Shown: positions 19,876-30,692 of the stretch, one piece after another | Numbering within the stretch: the first letter of the stretch is position 1 | Layout of the letters: every line of letters begins with the position of its first letter | Origin: Desulfovibrio aminophilus | GTDB taxonomy: Bacteria > Desulfobacterota > Desulfovibrionia > Desulfovibrionales > Desulfovibrionaceae | Assembly: GCF_023660105.1 (NCBI RefSeq) | Contig: NZ_JAMHGA010000018.1 | Location: 62,001 to 126,000, forward strand | Direction: 5' to 3' | Length of the DNA stretch: 64,000 nucleotides | Position numbers and translations under genes: made by a program | Notes under the pieces: generated by a model | Told to the model about the DNA's origin: nothing | The model's input: the letters and a program-made list of their open reading frames with translations, nothing else | Databases searched by the model: none

Positions 19876-21402
19876 TCAGGGGGCGGGGGCGGCCTCGGAG
19901 CGCACCGCCAGCATGGGCGGCAGATAGAGGGTCACGGCCGTGCCCTCGCCCAGGCGGCTCTGGATGTCGATGCGCCCGCCGAACTCCTCGACGATCTTCT
20001 TGATCATGGCCAGTCCCAGGCCGTAGCCCTGCTCCTTGGTGGTGTAGAAGGGGCTGCAGGCCTTTTCCAGGTCCTGGCTGGACATGCCCTGGCCCCGGTC
20101 CGCGACGCGCAGGAAGACGAAGTCGCCCTCCAGGCCGCAGTCCGTGGTGATGATTCCGCCCTGGGGCATGGCCTCGATGGAGTTCTTGTAAAGGTTCACC
20201 AGGCACTGCTTGATGAGTTCGGCCTCGCCGCTGACCTTGGGCAGCGCGGCCGGGCAGTTGACCTGGAACTCGTAGCCCCGGCGGGCGTAGCCGATCTCCA
20301 TGAGCTCCGCCGTGTCGGCCGCCAGGCGGCTGATGTCCACGCTGCCCGTGGGCGCGCCGGTGGGCCGGGCGAAGTTCAGGATGCTCGTGAGCATGTGGTC
20401 CAGCCGCTTGGTCTCCTCGGCGATGATGGTCAGCTTCTCGCGGTTGGGCCCGGAGAACTCCGGGGAGCGGAGCAGGGCGTTGGTGAACCCGCCGATGGCG
20501 AAGAGCGGGTTGCGGATTTCGTGGGCCAGGTAGGTGGACATCTCGCCGATGACGGAGAGCCGGTCGGCCTGCTGCTGGTGCTTCTCGCGGTAGGTCCGGG
20601 AGGTGATGTCGCGCTGCATGACCATGATGTGGGTCATGGAGCCCAGGGCGTCCAGGATGGGATAGGCGTAGATGCGGAAATAGAGCAGGCGGCCCTCGGC
20701 GTTGACCCGGGTCATGAGGGTCTCGGCCGCCTCGCGGCCGGCCAGGGTCTTGTGGAACGGGCACTCCCTGTCCATGACCCGGCAGAAGGGCAGGCCGTCG
20801 CGCAGGGTCATGACCTCAAAGCAGGGCTTGCCGAGCAGGTCCTCCTTTGGCCGTCCGGTGCGCTGCCAGACGTTGCGGTTCATGTCCACCACGCGGCCCC
20901 GGAGGTCCAGCACGAGGATGTCCTCGCGGACCTCGTCGATGATGGCCTGCAGGAGGTTGCGCTGGCGGTCCAGGCTGACCTCGCAGTGGGTCTTCATCTT
21001 GGCCATGTCCCGCAGGCCGCAGAAGAACACGGCCGCGGCGTGGTCCACCAGGGAGACCGTGGGCGGCAGGATGCGCCGCAGATCCTCGATCCGCTGCGTC
21101 CTGCCGGTGAGCTCCACGAGGTAGCGGATGTCCGGGTGCGCGGCCCACATGGCCTCGAAGCTCGGATAGACGGGAACCCTGGCGGCCTCCACCTGGCGCA
21201 GGCGCGAGGGGTCCGGGCCCGGCTCGGCCACGGCCACCAGCTGGAATCCGGGCAGGAAATCATGGAAGTCCGGACTGGTGAGCAGATCAACGATGGAGAG
21301 AAAGCCCGGACCCGTGCCGAGCACGGCCACGCGGTATTCTCCCTCGCCGCTTTCGTAGAGGCAGTAGTCCTCGCGCAGGGCCTTTTCTTCGGCGTCGCTC
21401 AT
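19876..21402 (-). CDS. Histidine kinase with N-terminal Rossmann-like domain and PAS
   Basis: A 508-aa cytoplasmic sensor kinase. I chose ATG 21402 (MSDAEEKA); an ATG at 21422 is out of frame and the in-frame TTG 21429 lacks support. Residues about 18-125 look like a dinucleotide-binding fold (VLGTGPGF, then a Glu in VAVAEPG, then LVELTGR). A PAS domain (about 155-265) has CFEVM and a Cys pair CRVMDRECPF. The kinase core has the phospho-acceptor His294 in HEIRNP and ATPase boxes NSIEA, DRGQGM and GYGLGLAMIKKI. There is no transmembrane segment. It is divergent from the Usp and NtrC-type genes, which may form its pathway. The ligand of the Rossmann domain is unknown. Confidence 0.85.
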   Translation of the reverse strand: MSDAEEKALREDYCLYESGEGEYRVAVLGTGPGFLSIVDLLTSPDFHDFLPGFQLVAVAEPGPDPSRLRQVEAARVPVYPSFEAMWAAHPDIRYLVELTGRTQRIEDLRRILPPTVSLVDHAAAVFFCGLRDMAKMKTHCEVSLDRQRNLLQAIIDEVREDILVLDLRGRVVDMNRNVWQRTGRPKEDLLGKPCFEVMTLRDGLPFCRVMDRECPFHKTLAGREAAETLMTRVNAEGRLLYFRIYAYPILDALGSMTHIMVMQRDITSRTYREKHQQQADRLSVIGEMSTYLAHEIRNPLFAIGGFTNALLRSPEFSGPNREKLTIIAEETKRLDHMLTSILNFARPTGAPTGSVDISRLAADTAELMEIGYARRGYEFQVNCPAALPKVSGEAELIKQCLVNLYKNSIEAMPQGGIITTDCGLEGDFVFLRVADRGQGMSSQDLEKACSPFYTTKEQGYGLGLAMIKKIVEEFGGRIDIQSRLGEGTAVTLYLPPMLAVRSEAAPAP

Positions 21403-21488
21403 GCGGGACCCCCCGGTTCCATCTTGCAATACGGGCCAAAAAAGGCAACTAATACGGTCAGCTCATACGCGGTCGGAAGGAGGTCGGC

Positions 21489-22358
21489 ATGGACAGACAT
21501 CTTCTCGTCACGATCAGCAACGATCCCCAACACCTGCATGGCATCCGCTATGTCGCCTACTTTTTCCAGGACAAGCGGGACATCCGGCTGACCCTGTTCA
21601 ACGTGGTGGCCGGGGCCCCGGCCGTCTGGGCCGAGGAGAAGTCCTTCGAAACCCTGGCCCAGGGCGAGGAGATGGCCAAGCGCAACCTGGACCGCAGCCT
21701 GCAGACCCTGTCGGAATGCAAGCGCATCCTGGTGCAGCACGGTTTCCTGCCTGACAATATCGACACCAAGCACAGCTCGCAGGGAATGTCCAGGGCCATG
21801 ACCATCCTCCGCGAGGGCGAGGAGGGGCTCTACGACGCCGTGGTCCTGGGGCGGCGCGCCACCATGCGGCTGGCCGAGATCCTGGACGACAGCGTGAGCA
21901 AGGGCCTGCTCATGGAGGAGGTCACCTTTCCGCTCTGGATCTGCCGGGAGCCCGAGTGGGGGCGGCGCAACGTGCTGCTCTGCGCCGACGGCTCGGAGCC
22001 GAGCCTGCGCATGGCCGACCACGTGGGGTTCATGCTGGCCAAGGAGATCGAGCACAACGTGACCATGCTGCACGTGGCCCGGCCCGGCGGCTCGGACGAC
22101 CCGGCCCCGATCTTCGCCGCCACCCGCGAGGCCCTGGAACGCAACGGCGTGGCCCCGGAGCGCATCGAATCGCGCGTCCTGGAGGCCGCCAAGGTGGCCC
22201 CGGCCATCCTGCGCGAGGCCTCGGACCGGCGCTACGCAGCCGTGGCCGTGGGCCGCACCGGCGCGGGGGAGGGGCTGCTCGGCCGCCTGTTCATGGGCTC
22301 GGTGAGCATGTCCCTGTTCCGCGAAATCCGCGAGGCCGCCCTCTGGACCTGCCGTTAG
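21489..22358 (+). CDS. Universal stress protein family, tandem domains
   Basis: A 289-aa cytoplasmic protein from ATG 21489 behind GGAAGGAGG. The N-terminal half (about 1-145) has the start (LLVTISNDPQHLHGIRYVA) and a VVLGRRA turn of Usp domains. The second half (about 155-285) repeats the fold (NVLLCADGSEPSLRMADHV, AVAVGRTGAGE). The GxGxxG nucleotide motif is only partly kept, so ATP binding is uncertain. It sits 13 bases before the NtrC-type activator, so the two are probably cotranscribed. Confidence 0.78.
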   Translation: MDRHLLVTISNDPQHLHGIRYVAYFFQDKRDIRLTLFNVVAGAPAVWAEEKSFETLAQGEEMAKRNLDRSLQTLSECKRILVQHGFLPDNIDTKHSSQGMSRAMTILREGEEGLYDAVVLGRRATMRLAEILDDSVSKGLLMEEVTFPLWICREPEWGRRNVLLCADGSEPSLRMADHVGFMLAKEIEHNVTMLHVARPGGSDDPAPIFAATREALERNGVAPERIESRVLEAAKVAPAILREASDRRYAAVAVGRTGAGEGLLGRLFMGSVSMSLFREIREAALWTCR

Positions 22359-22371
22359 GCGCGGCGAGGCA

Positions 22372-23745
<1,374 letters not shown>

Positions 23746-23811
23746 TCCCGTCGTCCCGGGCCGTCCCCGGGCCGGTTGGAGCTGTCCGGGTGTCGCCCTG
23801 TCTTGAAACAG

Positions 23812-23842
23812 ATGTGTCGCTACACATGTGTCTCATAGACAC
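23812..23842. promoter_or_regulatory. Two abutting palindromes, candidate activator-binding sites
   Basis: ATGTGT-CGCT-ACACAT (23812-23827) is directly followed by GTGTCT-CAT-AGACAC (23828-23842). Both are perfect. Their centres lie about 125 and 109 bases before the -24 element at 23943, the usual place for NtrC-type enhancer sites. Further TGTC words lie just upstream and downstream (23783-23847). Confidence 0.7.
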
Positions 23843-23942
23843 TGTCCAACCGGTTTGTTTCCGTTTCGTAACAGAAGTATTTTTCATTATAACATATTAA
23901 TATATTGTCATGATTTGCTGATCATCCGGGATTAGAACCCGT

Positions 23943-23957
23943 TGGCACGGCTGTTGC
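23943..23957 (+). promoter_or_regulatory. Consensus sigma54 promoter
   Basis: TGGCAC-N5-TTGC, followed by T, matches the consensus at every conserved base, 68 bases before the CII-like gene. The surrounding AT-rich run (23881-23925) is unusual for this GC-rich window. Confidence 0.9.
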
Positions 23958-24024
23958 TCTTTTTCTAAAGCACAATGGCCGAACTGGCCCATTCCCGGGC
24001 CAGGGGACCAAGGGGGGACCATTC

Positions 24025-24339
24025 ATGTACCGCAAGAGCATCACCAAGATCGTGCAGGACATGGTGCTGGAGGGCGAACGCCCGGCCAAGCAGCTGGCCG
24101 CCGACCTCGGCAAGCCCTATTCCACGCTGCTGCGCGAGGTGAATCCCTTTGACAAGAACGCCAAGCTCGGCGTGGAAACGCTGATGCAGATCATGAAGCT
24201 GACCAAGAACGAGGCCCCGTTGCGCTACATGGCCCAGGAGCTGGGCTTCACGCTCGTGCCCTCGGCCAAGACCGCGCGCGCGGAGCTTTCGTTCTGCAGC
24301 ACCAAGGGATCCGAAGCCCGGGCCAAGGCCGCGGGCTGA
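24025..24339 (+). CDS. CII-like (CP76 family) small regulatory protein
   Basis: A 104-aa protein from ATG 24025. The first 75 residues (ITKIVQDMVLEGERPAKQLA, LGKPYSTLLREVNP, LGVETLMQIMKLT) match the phage CII / CP76 helix-turn-helix family. Desulfovibrio relatives often carry chromosomal members of this family, to my knowledge. It is driven by the consensus sigma54 promoter at 23943 and closed by the terminator at 24394, so it is a monocistronic, tightly regulated gene. No other phage genes are near. Its targets are unknown. Confidence 0.78.
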   Translation: MYRKSITKIVQDMVLEGERPAKQLAADLGKPYSTLLREVNPFDKNAKLGVETLMQIMKLTKNEAPLRYMAQELGFTLVPSAKTARAELSFCSTKGSEARAKAAG

Positions 24340-24393: not shown

Positions 24394-24429
24394 GCCGGCG
24401 CCCCGGGGGGGGGCGCCGGCTTCATTTTT
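24394..24429 (+). terminator. Intrinsic terminator after the CII-like gene
   Basis: GCCGGCGCCC (24394-24403) pairs perfectly with GGGCGCCGGC (24411-24420) around a C/G loop, followed by TTCATTTTTC. Confidence 0.85.
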
Positions 24430-24492: not shown

Positions 24493-26097
24493 ATGGCCAG
24501 TGCGGCTTTGCCGAGAAAAGCGCCCACCCCGCCGCCCCTGCCCCTGCTCGTGGTGGCCCGCGAGCCCGACGACCTGCGGCTGGTGGACGCCGCGCTGTCC
24601 GGCCTGAATTTCGCGCCCGAACCGTTTCCCGATCTGTCTGCCGCCCAGGAGCGGTTGGACGGCGGGCCCTTCCGGGCGGCCGTGGTCTTCACCGCCGATG
24701 ACGATCCCCTGAAGCTGGCCCGCGCCGTCCGGGCGCTCCCCGGCGAGCCGCCCGTGCTCCTGCTGGTCCCGGAGGACTGGTCCGCCGAGGGTTGCGTCTT
24801 TCCCGCCCGCGGCGCCTACCTGCCGCGCCGCGCCGCCGCCCCGGAACTGCGCCGGGTCCTGCTGGACCTGCTGGAGGAGCCCGGCCGCGAGGATCGCGGG
24901 GCGGGCCGCTTCTTCCGCTCCCTGCTCGACTTCCTGGGCGGCGCGCTCGTGCTGGCCTCGGCCGACGACCTGCGCATCCTGGAGTGGTCGGCGGGAGCCG
25001 GACGGCTCTTCGGCTTTTCCGCCGCCCAGGTCCTGGGCAGGCCCTTTCCCGAGGTCCTGGAGCCCCTGCTGGGAGCCGCCGGAGGCCGGGACGGACTGCC
25101 GAGGGAGGGCGGCCTGCTGCACGAGGAGACGCCCATGCTCCGGCAGGACGCCCCGCCGGTCCTGCTCCTGCGCAGCGTGTTCCCCTCGGAGATCGGTGGA
25201 ACCCGGGTCCTGGCCCTGTTCTTCTACGACGTGTCCGCGCGGCGGAACCGGGAGCGGCTCATGGGCATCGCCCAGCGCCTGGAGTCCATCGGCCGCCTGG
25301 CCTCGGGCATCGCCCACGAGATCAATACGCCGATCCACTACATCGGTGACAACATGCGCTTCCTGGAGCAGTCCTTCGCGGGCATGGACGGGGTGCTGCG
25401 GCTGTTCCTCTCCTGCCTGGAGCAGGTGCGCCGGGGCGCTGATCCGACGACCCACCTGGAGCGCATCGAGGCGGCCATCCGGGCCGCTGACCTCGATTTC
25501 CTGGAAACCGAGATCCCCCTGGCCATCAGCCAATCCATGGAAGGCGTGGAGCGCGTGGCCGCCATCGTGCGCGGGATGAAGAAGTTCGCCCATCCCGAGC
25601 AGGAGGAGCGCCGCCACGTGGACGTCAACCAGGCCCTGCGCGACGCCCTGCTCGTGGCGCGCAACGAGTGGAAGTACGTGGCCGACCTGGCCACGGACTT
25701 CGACGAGGGCCTGCCCCTGGTGAGCTGCCTGGCCGGGGACCTGAACCAAGTCTTCCTGAACATCATCGTCAACGCGGCCCAGGCCGTGGAGGAGACGGTG
25801 CGCGGGCGCGGCGGCAAGGGCCGGATCACGGTCTCCACCCGTCGCGACGGCGAGTGGGTCGAAATCCGGGTGGCCGACACCGGCCCGGGCATCCCGGCGG
25901 CCAGCCAGGGCCGCGTCTTCGATCCCTTCTTCACCACCAAGGAGGTCGGCCGGGGCACGGGCCAGGGCCTGGCCATCGCCCATTCCATCGTGGTGGACAA
26001 GCACGGCGGGACCATCTCCTTCACCACCGAGGAGGGGCGGGGAACCTGCTTCATCGTCCGCCTGCCCCTGAATCCCGCCGTGGAGGCCCGGTCCTGA
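24493..26097 (+). CDS. PAS-domain histidine kinase
   Basis: A 534-aa soluble kinase from ATG 24493. Residues about 15-125 look like a degenerate receiver (LLVVAREPDDLRLVDAAL; no clear phospho-Asp). A PAS domain (about 145-255) is followed by a dimerisation helix with His275 in GIAHEINTP and a long insertion before the ATPase boxes (NIIVNAAQAV, DTGPGIP, GTGQGLAIAHSI). The HEINTP box and insert place it with DctB-like group 4 kinases. Its stop overlaps the next start (TGATG at 26095-26099), so it is coupled to the REC-HDOD protein, its probable partner. Confidence 0.88.
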   Translation: MASAALPRKAPTPPPLPLLVVAREPDDLRLVDAALSGLNFAPEPFPDLSAAQERLDGGPFRAAVVFTADDDPLKLARAVRALPGEPPVLLLVPEDWSAEGCVFPARGAYLPRRAAAPELRRVLLDLLEEPGREDRGAGRFFRSLLDFLGGALVLASADDLRILEWSAGAGRLFGFSAAQVLGRPFPEVLEPLLGAAGGRDGLPREGGLLHEETPMLRQDAPPVLLLRSVFPSEIGGTRVLALFFYDVSARRNRERLMGIAQRLESIGRLASGIAHEINTPIHYIGDNMRFLEQSFAGMDGVLRLFLSCLEQVRRGADPTTHLERIEAAIRAADLDFLETEIPLAISQSMEGVERVAAIVRGMKKFAHPEQEERRHVDVNQALRDALLVARNEWKYVADLATDFDEGLPLVSCLAGDLNQVFLNIIVNAAQAVEETVRGRGGKGRITVSTRRDGEWVEIRVADTGPGIPAASQGRVFDPFFTTKEVGRGTGQGLAIAHSIVVDKHGGTISFTTEEGRGTCFIVRLPLNPAVEARS

Positions 26098-27308
26098 TGA
26101 AAAAGACCGTTCTTTTCGTGGACGACGAGCAGAACATGCTCGACGCCCTGCGCCGCATGCTCCGGCCCATGACCGGGGAGTGGGACATGCACTTCGCCCG
26201 CAGCGGCGACGACGCCCTGGCGCTCCTGGCCCGGCACCCGGTGGACGTGGTCATCACGGATCTGCGCATGCCGGTCATGGACGGCGGCGAGCTGCTCAAG
26301 GTCATCCAGGAGTCCCGGCCGGACGTGGTGCGCATCGTGCTCTCCGGCCACGCGGACTACAACATGGTCATGCGCTCGGTGAAGCAGGCCCACCAGTTCC
26401 TGACCAAGCCCTGCTCCACGGACGTCATCCGCGAGGCCCTGGAGAAGGCCTACAACCTGCGCCGCATCCTGACCAACGAGGCGGCCAAGGCCATCGTCTC
26501 GCGCATCGAGAGCCTGCCGAGCCTGCCGGACCTCTACGTGCGGGTGGTGGAGGAAGTGCGCCGGGAGAACTCCTCCCTGGGCCGCATCGGCGGGATCATC
26601 TCCGAGGACCCGGCCATGACCGCGGCCATCCTCAAGATGGTCAACTCCTCCTTCTTCGGCTTCTTCCGGCCGGTGACCAATCCGGCCCAGGCCGTGAGCC
26701 TCCTCGGCATCGAGATCGTCAAGGGCCTGATCCTCTCGGCCCACCTCTTCTCGGTCTTCGACTTCAGCCGTTTCCCGCGCTACTCCATGGACGTGCTCGT
26801 GGACCACAGCCTGGCCAGCGGCCGCATCGCCTCGGCCATCGCCAAGTTCGAGGGCATGCCCCCGGAGATGGTGGACGAGTGCTTCATCGCGGGCATGCTC
26901 CACGACATCGGCAAGCTCATCCTGGCCTCGCGCTTCGAGAAGGAGTACCTGGGCGTGCTGAACGCCGTGCGGCGGGAGAACCGCACGGTCTGGGAGGTGG
27001 AGCGCGAGGTGCTGAAGACCTCGCACGCCGAGTTGGGGGCCTATCTCCTGGGCCTCTGGAACCTGCCCGGGGCCGTGGTCGACGCCCTGGCCTTCCACCA
27101 CGAGCCCATGCTCGCGGGCGTGGGCCGCGACTTCAGCCCGCTCACCGCCGTGCACGCGGCCAACGCCCTGGAGCACGACCTGCGGGTCATCAACCGCGAG
27201 TACGCGCCGCACCCCCCTGATCCCGAATACCTGGAACACATGGGCCTGACCGGGCACCTTCCCCAGTGGAAGGAGCTCTGCGCCCAGATCTACGAGCCCA
27301 AGCTCTAG
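26097..27308 (+). CDS. Receiver-HDOD response regulator
   Basis: A 403-aa protein from ATG 26097, coupled to the kinase by TGATG. The receiver (1-120) has the acidic pair VDDEQ, phospho-Asp55 in VVITDLRMP and Lys in FLTKPCS. The HDOD domain (about 140-335) has IESLPSLPDLYVRV and the degenerate HD site AGMLHDIGKLIL. HDOD proteins act in regulatory signalling, and a hydrolase activity is not assured. With the kinase it forms a two-component pair without a DNA-binding output. Confidence 0.9.
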   Translation: MKKTVLFVDDEQNMLDALRRMLRPMTGEWDMHFARSGDDALALLARHPVDVVITDLRMPVMDGGELLKVIQESRPDVVRIVLSGHADYNMVMRSVKQAHQFLTKPCSTDVIREALEKAYNLRRILTNEAAKAIVSRIESLPSLPDLYVRVVEEVRRENSSLGRIGGIISEDPAMTAAILKMVNSSFFGFFRPVTNPAQAVSLLGIEIVKGLILSAHLFSVFDFSRFPRYSMDVLVDHSLASGRIASAIAKFEGMPPEMVDECFIAGMLHDIGKLILASRFEKEYLGVLNAVRRENRTVWEVEREVLKTSHAELGAYLLGLWNLPGAVVDALAFHHEPMLAGVGRDFSPLTAVHAANALEHDLRVINREYAPHPPDPEYLEHMGLTGHLPQWKELCAQIYEPKL

Positions 27309-27641
27309 CCGTCCCGCCCGCGTCCCGTCCCTTTCCGGCCTCGCGCCGGGTCTTTCCCGTCGTGGTGCCAAAATCTGCCGAAGATCGGAATAGTTGCCTC
27401 CGCGCGGAATATCGCTAGGTTCATCATATAGTCATATGCATTTTTTCGAATTTCTTTGAAAACAACGAGTTATATTTTTAACAAGGGGGTTCGAGAGCTT
27501 CTTTACGGTCATTATGTCTATTTTGGCACAAACCTTGGCGGATGCCGCGCGTTGTTCCGTGGCGCGGCGCATCCCGGGGAGGGCGGAAGAGGGGTCCGCC
27601 GCCCAGGGGTTGTCGAGAAACCTTCATGCTTGGAGGAGATC
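27309..27641. other. 333-base AT-rich regulatory gap before fdhA
   Basis: No gene is seen. It holds a short GC hairpin CCGGC-N5-GCCGG (27335-27349) that may end the HDOD mRNA, then an AT-rich stretch (27401-27480) with an imperfect dyad TTTTCGAA-N4-TTTGAAAA (27443-27462), and a sigma54-like element at 27524. Confidence 0.5.
27524..27538 (+). promoter_or_regulatory. Candidate sigma54 promoter of fdhAB
   Basis: TGGCAC-N5-TTGG has a perfect -24 half and one mismatch in the -12 half (TTGG for TTGC), 104 bases before fdhA. The 27443-27462 dyad lies about 75 bases upstream and could be an activator site. Confidence 0.5.
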
Positions 27642-30600
27642 ATGCCAGTCACGCGAAGGGACTTCCTCAAGATCAGCGCCGCCACGGCCGTGACCACGGC
27701 CTTCGGCGGCCTGGGCCTCGGCTGCGCGGCCCGGGGCAAGGCCCAGGGGCCCGCGCCCCTGCCCGCCGACCGCATCCAGGCCCTGAAGCCGGAGTGGAGC
27801 AAGCGGAGCACGTCGGTTTGCTGCTACTGCGCCGTGGGCTGCGGCCTCATCGTCAACACCTCCCTGGCCACCCGCAAGGCCGTCAACGTGGAGGGCGACC
27901 CGGACCATCCCATCAACCAGGGCGCGCTCTGCGCCAAGGGCGCCAGCATCTGGCAGCTGGGCGACAACGACAAGCGCCCCAAGACCGTGCTCTACCGCGC
28001 GCCATACTCCGACAAGTTCGAGGCCAAGCCCTGGGACTGGGCGCTCAAGCGCATCGCCCGGCTGGTCAAGGACGCCCGCGACAAGGATTTCGAGAAGGCC
28101 AACGCCAAGGGCGAGTCCGTGAACCGGGTGACCAGCATCGCCTCGGTGGGCTCGGCGGCCATGGACAACGAGGAGTGCTGGGCCTACCAAGCCATGCTGA
28201 GGAGCCTCGGCCTGGTCTATATCGAGCACCAGGCCCGTATCTGACACAGCGCTACTGTGGCGGCTCTGGCAGAGTCGTTCGGACGCGGCGCGATGACCAA
28301 TCACTGGACCGACCTGGCCAACAGTGATTGCATTCTCATCATGGGCAGCAACGCTGCCGAAAACCACCCCATCTCGTTCAAATGGGTGACCAAGGCCCAG
28401 GAGCGGGGGGCCACCGTGATCCATGTGGATCCGCGCTTCACCCGCACCTCGGCCAAGTCGGACATGTACTTCGGCCTGCGCTCGGGCACGGACATCGCCG
28501 TTCTCGGCGGCATGATCAACTACATCCTGTCCAACAACCTGATCTTCAAGGACTATGTGGTGGAGTACACCAACGCCTCCTTCATCGTGGGCGAGGGATA
28601 CTCCTTCAAGGACGGCCTGTTCGGCGGCTACGACGCCCAGAAACAGGCCTACGACAAGAGCGGCTGGGCCTTCGAGAACGACGGGAACGGCGTTCCGAAG
28701 AAGGATCCCACGCTCAAGCATCCCCGCTGCGTGTACCAGCTGCTCAAGAAGCACTATTCGCGCTACGACCTGAAGAAGGTCGCCGGGATCAGCGGCATGC
28801 CCGAGGCGGACCTGAGGAAGTTCTACAAGACCTTCTCGGCCACGGGCAAACCCGACAAGGCCGGGACCATCATGTACGCCATGGGCTGGACCCAGCACAC
28901 CGTGGGCGTGCAGAACATCCGGGCCATGGCCATGATCCAGCTCCTGCTGGGCAACATCGGCATCGCCGGCGGCGGGGTGAACGCCCTGCGCGGCGAGTCC
29001 AACGTGCAGGGCTCCACGGACCACGCCCTGCTGTTCCACATCCTGCCCGGCTACCTGCCCACCCCGGCCGCGTCCCTGGCCACGCTGGCGGACTACAACG
29101 CCAAGAACACGCCCGTGTCCAAGGACCCCAGGAGCGCCAACTGGTGGCAGAACCGGCCCAAGTACATGGCCAGCTTCCTCAAGTCCATGTGGGAGGACGC
29201 GGACCTGGACCAGGCCTATTCCTGGCTGCCCAAGCTCGATCCGGGCGGGTCGCGGGAGTATTCCTGGCTGGCCCTGTTCGACAAGATGGTCCAGGGCCGC
29301 TTCAAGGGCTTCTTCGCCTGGGGCATGAACCCGGCCTGCTCCGGGGCCAACGCCAACAAAACCCGCAAGGCGCTCGGCACGCTCGACTGGATGGTCAACG
29401 TGAACATCTTCGAGAACGAGACCGGCTGGTTCTGGCAGGGCCCGGGCATGGACCCCAAGAGCATCAAGACCGAGGTCTTCTTCCTGCCCTGCAGCGTGTC
29501 CATCGAGAAGGAGGGCTCGGTGAGCAACTCCGGCCGCTGGATGCAGTGGCGCTACGCCGGACCGGCCCGCTACGGCGAAACCCGCCCGGACGGCGACATC
29601 ATGCTCGGCCTGTTCCGCGAAATCCAGGCCCTGTACAAGAAGGAGAAGGGCGTCCTGCCGGAGCCCATCCTCAAGGCCACCTGGGCCAAGACGGACAAGC
29701 ACGGCGAGTTCGATCCGCACGCCACGGCCAAGCTCATCAACGGCGCGTTCCTCAAGGACGTGACGATCGGCGACAAGGTCTACAAGAAGGGCGAGCAGGT
29801 GCCGAGCTTCGCCATGCTCCAGGCCGACGGCTCCACCAGCTCGGGCAACTGGGTCTACGCGGGCTCGTACACCGACAAGGGCAACATGGGCGCGCGCCGC
29901 GACGCCACCCAGACCCCGGCCCAGGCCGCCATCGGGCTCTATCCCAACTGGACCTGGTGCTGGCCGGTGAACCGCCGCATCCTCTACAACCGCGCCTCCT
30001 GCGACCCCGCGGGCAAGCCCTGGAATCCGGCCAAGGCGGTCATCGCCTGGAACGCCGGGGACAAGAAGTGGGTCGGCGACGTGCCGGACGGCGGTTGGGC
30101 CCCGGGCGAGAAGTATCCCTTCATCATGCTCAAGGAGGGGCACGGGCAGATCTACGGCCCGGGCCTCAACGACGGACCCTTCCCCGAGTACTACGAGCCG
30201 CTGGAGTGCCCGGTGTCCGCGCACCCGTTCTCCGGTCGGCTGCACAACCCCACGGCCCTGACCTTCGCGGGCGAGGAGCGGAACTCCTGCGACCTGCGCT
30301 ACCCCTACGTCTGCTCCACCTACCGGGTGACGGAGCACTGGCAGACCGGCGTCATGACCCGCTGGACGCCCTGGCTGCTTGAGGCCGAGCCGCAGATGTT
30401 CTGCGAAATCTCGGCCGAGCTGGCCAAGCTCAAGGGCATCGCCAACGGCGAGAAGGTCATCCTGGAGAATTCCCGGGGTTCGCTTTGGGCCGTGGCCATC
30501 GTCACGACCCGGCTCAAGCCCTTCAGGATCCAGGGCCGGACCCTGCATCAGGTGGGCATTCCCTGGCACTTCGGCTGGGTGCATCCGAAGGACGGCGGCG

Positions 30601-30692
30601 ACGCCGCCAACCTGCTCTCGCCCTCGGTGGGCGATCCCAACACCGGCATCCCCGAGACCAAGGCCTTCATGGTCAACGTCCGGAAAGCCTGA
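27642..30692 (+). CDS. fdhA: Formate dehydrogenase alpha subunit, selenocysteine-containing, Tat-exported
   Basis: This is the periplasmic Mo/W-bis-PGD catalytic subunit that oxidises formate to CO2. It is 1016 residues from ATG 27642 behind GGAGGAG; the in-frame upstream extension lacks a ribosome site. A Tat signal (TRRDFLK, residues 4-10) comes first. A [4Fe-4S] motif follows with Cys60, Cys63 and Cys67 and a fourth in GALCAKG. The in-frame TGA at 28242-28244 encodes Sec201: the flanks (HQARI before, HSATVAALAESFGRGAM after) match the FdnG/FdhA active site. Reading it as stop would split the protein. Molybdopterin oxidoreductase and C-terminal dinucleotide-binding domains follow. The beta subunit is 11 bases downstream. 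No gamma subunit is present, so this is the soluble FdhAB type. Confidence 0.95.
28259..28279 (+). promoter_or_regulatory. Bacterial SECIS-like hairpin after the Sec codon
   Basis: Bases 28259-28267 pair with 28271-28279 (9 pairs including G-U) around a GGC loop, 14 bases after the in-frame TGA. SelB-binding elements in bacteria lie in this place within the reading frame. Confidence 0.72.

Follow-up and report, generated by a model that had tools for sequence, protein, structure and literature searches.

In this study, a window of 64,000 nucleotides of the Desulfovibrio aminophilus genome (contig NZ_JAMHGA010000018.1; "the window" is the whole stretch of DNA analysed, and positions are counted within it) was observed to carry an NtrC-type activator gene followed by two abutting dyads, a full-consensus sigma-54 promoter, a single small gene of the CP76, or phage 186 CII, type and a terminator. 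We consider it likely that this locus forms a sigma-54 cascade in which a two-component system has a domesticated phage-type regulator as its output, and the activator/CP76 arrangement is recurrent in Desulfovibrionaceae, not a one-off. A circuit of this kind had been proposed in an initial annotation of the window, and the proposal is supported here, as its sequence-testable parts all hold; it gains further support because the locus is conserved in three species and because four further genera show the same gene order with different activators. The features of the locus are as follows.

19876-21429, minus strand: histidine kinase with PAS domain and GxGxxG-bearing N-terminus, candidate partner of the activator (Pfam PAS, HisKA, HATPase_c)
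21489-22358, plus strand: two-domain universal stress protein (Pfam Usp; synteny in three species)
22372-23745, plus strand: NtrC-type response-regulator activator, presumed activator of the CP76 promoter (Pfam Response_reg, Sigma54_activat, HTH_8)
23798-23811: third, weaker dyad, CTGT-N6-ACAG, adjoining dyad 1 on its left
23812-23827: dyad 1, ATGTGT-CGCT-ACACAT, putative upstream activating site
23828-23842: dyad 2, GTGTCT-CAT-AGACAC, putative upstream activating site
23890-23907: two overlapping predicted IHF-like sites in the A+T-rich linker, each with 8 of 9 consensus positions
23942-23958, plus strand: sigma-54 promoter, TTGGCACG-GCTG-TTGCT, full consensus
24025-24339, plus strand: short CP76 / 186-CII-type helix-turn-helix regulator of 104 aa (PF06892, PHROG 101, dN/dS, predicted fold)
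24394-24420, plus strand: intrinsic terminator, a strong G+C-rich stem-loop with T-run (terminator scan)
24493-26097, plus strand: PAS histidine kinase, candidate partner of the activator (Pfam PAS, HATPase_c)
26097-27308 (start approximate), plus strand: receiver-HDOD response regulator behind the kinase (Pfam Response_reg, HDOD)

The two abutting palindromes that the initial annotation had described upstream of the promoter were confirmed by direct sequence reading, and the sigma-54 consensus promoter, the single small gene and the terminator behind it were all recovered as well. In dinucleotide shuffles of the intergenic stretch, one 6-bp dyad arose in 26% of cases and two neighbouring ones in 0.5%, so that a single dyad of this length is ordinary and the neighbouring pair is unusual. 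The 20-base dyad core, searched with up to 3 mismatches, has one copy per genome in three congeneric genomes, each at the CP76 locus. Dyad 1 is conserved across the three species of the genus, dyad 2 takes the form GTGTC-N5-GACAC or close to it in the other two, and the form of the third dyad is partly kept in the other species. Dyads 1 and 2 have different spacers (N4 and N3), which makes it hard to derive one binding rule for the activator. That the dyads terminate transcription of the activator gene was considered and rejected, as the terminator scan calls none there.

The promoter displays GG at -24 and GC at -12 at the fixed spacing, within the full consensus YTGGCACG-N4-TTGCW. Our genome-wide scans were pattern and family searches, and this pattern returned three matches in the whole 3.54-Mb genome, against none for the reversed control pattern. 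Of the other two sites, one (L171, G000:C19) immediately follows an activator gene and precedes Flp-pilin-like and prepilin-peptidase-like genes, and the other precedes a TSUP-type permease gene, these genes being named by eye; since both pili and TSUP permease belong to the established targets of sigma-54 in D. vulgaris (PMC4641369), the scan appears to be specific. The orthologous promoter has the full consensus in G001 and reads ATGGCATG-N4-TTGCT in G002. The IHF-like sites were scored against the consensus WATCARNNNNTTR (PMC3897727), and a match at 9 of 9 positions was noticed in the orthologous linker of G001. Stem-loops similar to the terminator were seen by eye in both G001 and G002.

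The activator gene just upstream, also named by the initial annotation, is intact. Its product comprises a receiver with a phospho-acceptor aspartate, a sigma-54 AAA+ domain with Walker motifs and GAFTGA, and a Fis-type helix-turn-helix, the constituents of an NtrC-type bEBP; residues D52, T80 and K103 and the GAFTGA motif are intact by eye. Two congeneric genomes have an orthologue at the corresponding position, with 95% and 85% identity, and synteny across the three species takes in the activator, dyads, promoter, CP76 gene, terminator, kinase and HDOD gene. The universal stress protein gene is probably co-transcribed with the activator gene. Both flanking kinases are conserved across the three species, the 19876-21429 gene being divergently oriented. 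They stood up as two PAS kinases in Pfam, whereas the "Rossmann" sensor that had been attributed to the 19876-21429 kinase corresponds to a GxGxxG motif seen by eye in its N-terminus and is kept as a candidate. The start of the receiver-HDOD gene was estimated from its receiver domain, and the Pfam matches sit in the ORF 25668-27308. Downstream of this gene, 27456-30692 encodes a formate-dehydrogenase-like molybdopterin oxidoreductase that has a TAT signal; its frame contains a TGA codon at 28242-28244, within QARI*HSATVA, as the genes of selenocysteine enzymes do.

The small gene had been called CII/CP76-like, and this designation stands for the CP76/186-CII family, of which it is a short form, but not for lambda CII. 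Its 104-aa product matches PF06892 with 46.2 bits (cut-off 26) over profile positions 6-81 of 146, so the N-terminal helix-turn-helix scores above the profile cut-off and the C-terminal region (profile positions about 85-146) is absent; it also matches PHROG 101 (CII-like activator). The ORF is, judging from its substitution pattern, coding and under purifying selection: dN/dS is about 0.12-0.18, third-position changes dominate, the frame is kept in all three species and homologues occur across Desulfovibrionaceae. The AlphaFold model (pLDDT 82, built with 47 sequences) has the same fold as the DNA-binding domain of 186 CII. In a Foldseek search against the PDB, 186 CII structures rank first with probability 1.00, though with an E-value of 0.05, and in structure comparison 186 CII is the best match with Z 9.2 over 72 residues, the next family reaching Z 8.0. 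The lead of 186 CII over general XRE-type domains thus appears modest in the model, and profile and fold nonetheless agree; when the family profile was searched against PDB sequences, chance matches alone came up, and 186 CII surfaced only through fold comparison. A lambda-type CII identity was rejected, since 186 CII and lambda CII have no relation (PMC7708051) and the fold search leads to 186 CII. The helix-turn-helix domain is common, by profile and predicted fold, to the window protein and phage 186 CII (PF06892; PDB 6vli, 6vmh, 6vpe), whereas the window protein lacks the C-terminal part and is encoded in a host locus behind a sigma-54 promoter. The C-terminal stretch of 186 CII recruits proteases (PMC7708051), and the short form ends well before the part that matches this stretch. 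Nor is the gene phage- or prophage-encoded, its locus being syntenic in three species and lying among kinase genes; a search of 50,697 phage records gave one weak match to the short form, and the plasmids searched gave 0 matches. The window protein is hence a short, host-borne offshoot of CP76 without its C-terminal domain, and is unrelated to lambda CII.

The CP76 profile search in Desulfovibrionaceae disclosed both long forms of about 150-190 aa, which cover the whole profile, and short forms, which cover the first half only. Short CP76 genes (profile A1) were found in 131 of 288 Desulfovibrionaceae genomes; among 247 genomes sampled from the phylum, mostly of other families, the window's own genome was the only one with a match (E 1e-8). 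The surroundings of 101 short-CP76 copies from 18 genera were compared, and a sigma-54 activator gene lies directly upstream on the same strand in 13 copies belonging to five genera (g1, that of the window, and g22, g24, g25 and g47). The window's genome has 33 clear sigma-54 activator genes, about 1% of its genes at an assumed number of about 3,300, and because activators make up so small a share the adjacency is far above chance, even with one count per genus. The order of activator, dyad, sigma-54-like site and CP76 is found in g22, g24, g25 and g47, with activators that differ from that of g1. Several activator-linked loci have a non-canonical -12 element (TTGAT, TTGTA), seen before CP76 in g22, g24 and g47. 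Outside g1, TGTAAA...TTTACA is the prevailing type of intergenic dyad. In g22, g24 and g47 the activator C-terminus has the sequence SRQRLY..LRKHG or one like it, and that of g25 (SRPTLYRKMREFG) is nearer to that of g1; the recognition helices of g22 and g47 differ from that of g1. Throughout the copies compared, the CP76 helix GKPYSTLLRE.NP.D..AKLG is nearly invariant. The link of CP76 with HDOD and kinase genes also recurs, as G026 has the gene order activator, CP76, Hpt, HDOD and hybrid kinase, and an HDOD gene lies near CP76 in G258 too. In the short-CP76 protein tree, built from few columns, the groups separate on a backbone without resolution, so that the number of sigma-54 acquisitions is not fixed by it.

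Activator adjacency is not general, because in genus g5 no activator gene was found within reach in the surroundings of the CP76 copies. Most g5 genomes have two short CP76 copies, a few kb apart. In each of the 18 genomes examined, which are related species and not independent events, one copy has a near-consensus sigma-54 site with a score of 25.5-28.5 out of 28.5, and the other copy has such a site in none of them; in random 250-bp windows a score of at least 25 is reached in 1.2% and of at least 27.5 in 0.3%. The region upstream of the promoter contains an array of half-sites, TGTCGC/GCGACA and also TGTTGC/GCAACA. Their mean number from -170 to -75 is 5.7, as compared with 0.07 in mononucleotide shuffles, and they are helically phased, with a mean resultant of 0.66 at 10.0-10.25 bp (103 sites). 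Across 19 g5 genomes, TGTCGC-N(2-5)-GCGACA is clustered only at the CP76 promoter, with scattered single copies elsewhere. By analogy with NorR, six half-sites would seat one activator hexamer. Between array and promoter, a conserved TATAACC(A/G)TTAGA element, which comes close to an IHF site when read on the opposite strand, was also noticed.

The sequence elements, their conservation and uniqueness, the gene order and the predicted fold are direct observations, and the cascade that we propose from them would work in the following way. One of the two flanking kinases would phosphorylate the response-regulator activator, which would then bind the 23812-23842 dyads, some 100-130 bases upstream of the -24 element. 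Probably through bending by IHF, the A+T-rich linker would bring the activator to the sigma-54 polymerase at 23942-23958, and the resulting transcription would yield the short CP76 protein alone, presumably as the only output of the activator. This protein may in turn act as a second-tier DNA-binding regulator of further genes.

Alternatively, the dyads may be bound by CP76 itself, in autoregulation, or by another activator, with the adjacent activator working elsewhere. The g5 array, which has no activator next door, agrees with this, as does the fact that activator and promoter are separate units; yet from genus to genus the dyads change along with the activator next to them while the CP76 helix hardly does, which makes the activator the likelier dyad binder. 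The dyad core, moreover, has no second genomic copy, which a regulator having only itself as target would not explain, and we regard this alternative as unlikely. It is also conceivable that CP76 mediates host-phage cross-talk, acting on the lysogeny promoters of resident prophages whose full-length CP76 (CII) resembles it, since full-length forms occur in many Desulfovibrionaceae genomes and the DNA-binding domain is common to both. The short form, however, is a host-conserved group seen only in Desulfovibrionaceae, practically missing from the phage and plasmid records and placed among signalling genes, and we hold such cross-talk to be quite improbable. The least credible reading, and one that we disfavour, is that the promoter mainly yields a regulatory RNA and that the ORF is incidental: ncRNAs are indeed listed for DVU0653 and DVU0679 in the same layout, with the output just behind the activator gene (PMC4641369), but the coding constraint and the homologues across the family speak clearly against it. 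The two-component cascade with CP76 as its output is our preferred reading.

With reference to the literature, the sigma-54 regulons of D. vulgaris Hildenborough have been mapped by DAP-chip and comparative analysis (PMC3333781, PMC4641369). There, too, response-regulator activators act on few, often neighbouring, sigma-54 promoters, and activators with a single neighbouring output are known already (PMC3333781, PMC4641369), the outputs including regulators (DVU0744 acting on DVU0682) and, immediately downstream of the activator, ncRNAs (DVU0653, DVU0679). The target just behind DVU0653 was marked as a gene missing from the annotation (PMC3333781), which made DVU0653 a candidate for the D. vulgaris counterpart of this system. 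What differs at the window locus is that the output is a phage-type regulator. A CII or CP76-type sigma-54 output is absent from the main texts of both studies, and our literature searches, which covered openly licensed papers only and so make its absence weak evidence, found no sigma-54-driven CII/CP76 output; a copper-stress paper with a "phage regulatory" match was set aside, as it concerns the Rha protein. No short CP76 was found in genome G017. At norVW, three NorR enhancer sites upstream of the sigma-54 promoter are a scaffold for the activator oligomer (PMC2941729), which resembles the multi-site arrays at the window locus and in g5; NorR, however, senses nitric oxide via a GAF domain, whereas the window activator has a receiver domain and a different output. 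The D. vulgaris orp promoters have an activator site, an IHF site in the linker and a sigma-54 site (PMC3897727), the same order of elements as at the window locus, where the use of IHF is a prediction.

Taken across the family, we see about an even chance that Desulfovibrionaceae domesticated a phage CII-type domain into small host regulators and plugged them several times, with different activators and enhancers, into sigma-54 two-component circuits as dedicated outputs, and that in one genus the enhancer grew into about six helically phased half-sites, enough for every DNA-binding domain of an activator hexamer. If true, this would be a route from phage switch proteins to host regulators. 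A family with such natural variants, in which activators and enhancers vary and the output is constant, would offer a test of the co-evolution of activator, enhancer and output, and the phased arrays of g5 a natural test of the half-site number and spacing that a sigma-54 activator ring needs.

Other short CP76 types were also encountered. One paralogue (L057/L064/L065; G000:C1, G001:C6, G002:C52) has a conserved TTGGCAYGGG(T/A)TTTGAT box about 130 bases before it, which is sigma-54-like with TTGAT in place of TTGCT, and no adjoining activator gene. A third paralogue (L058, L068; G000:C31, G001:C23) lies between a divergent activator gene and an HDOD gene, and no recognisable sigma-54 promoter was found before it. 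The second g5 copy (for example L106:3245-3556 and L124:10379-10684) lies beside class II fructose-bisphosphate aldolase genes, and in L063 and L070 this type seems by eye to follow a gapdh-like C-terminus. This second short type may have a regulatory role connected with central carbon metabolism.
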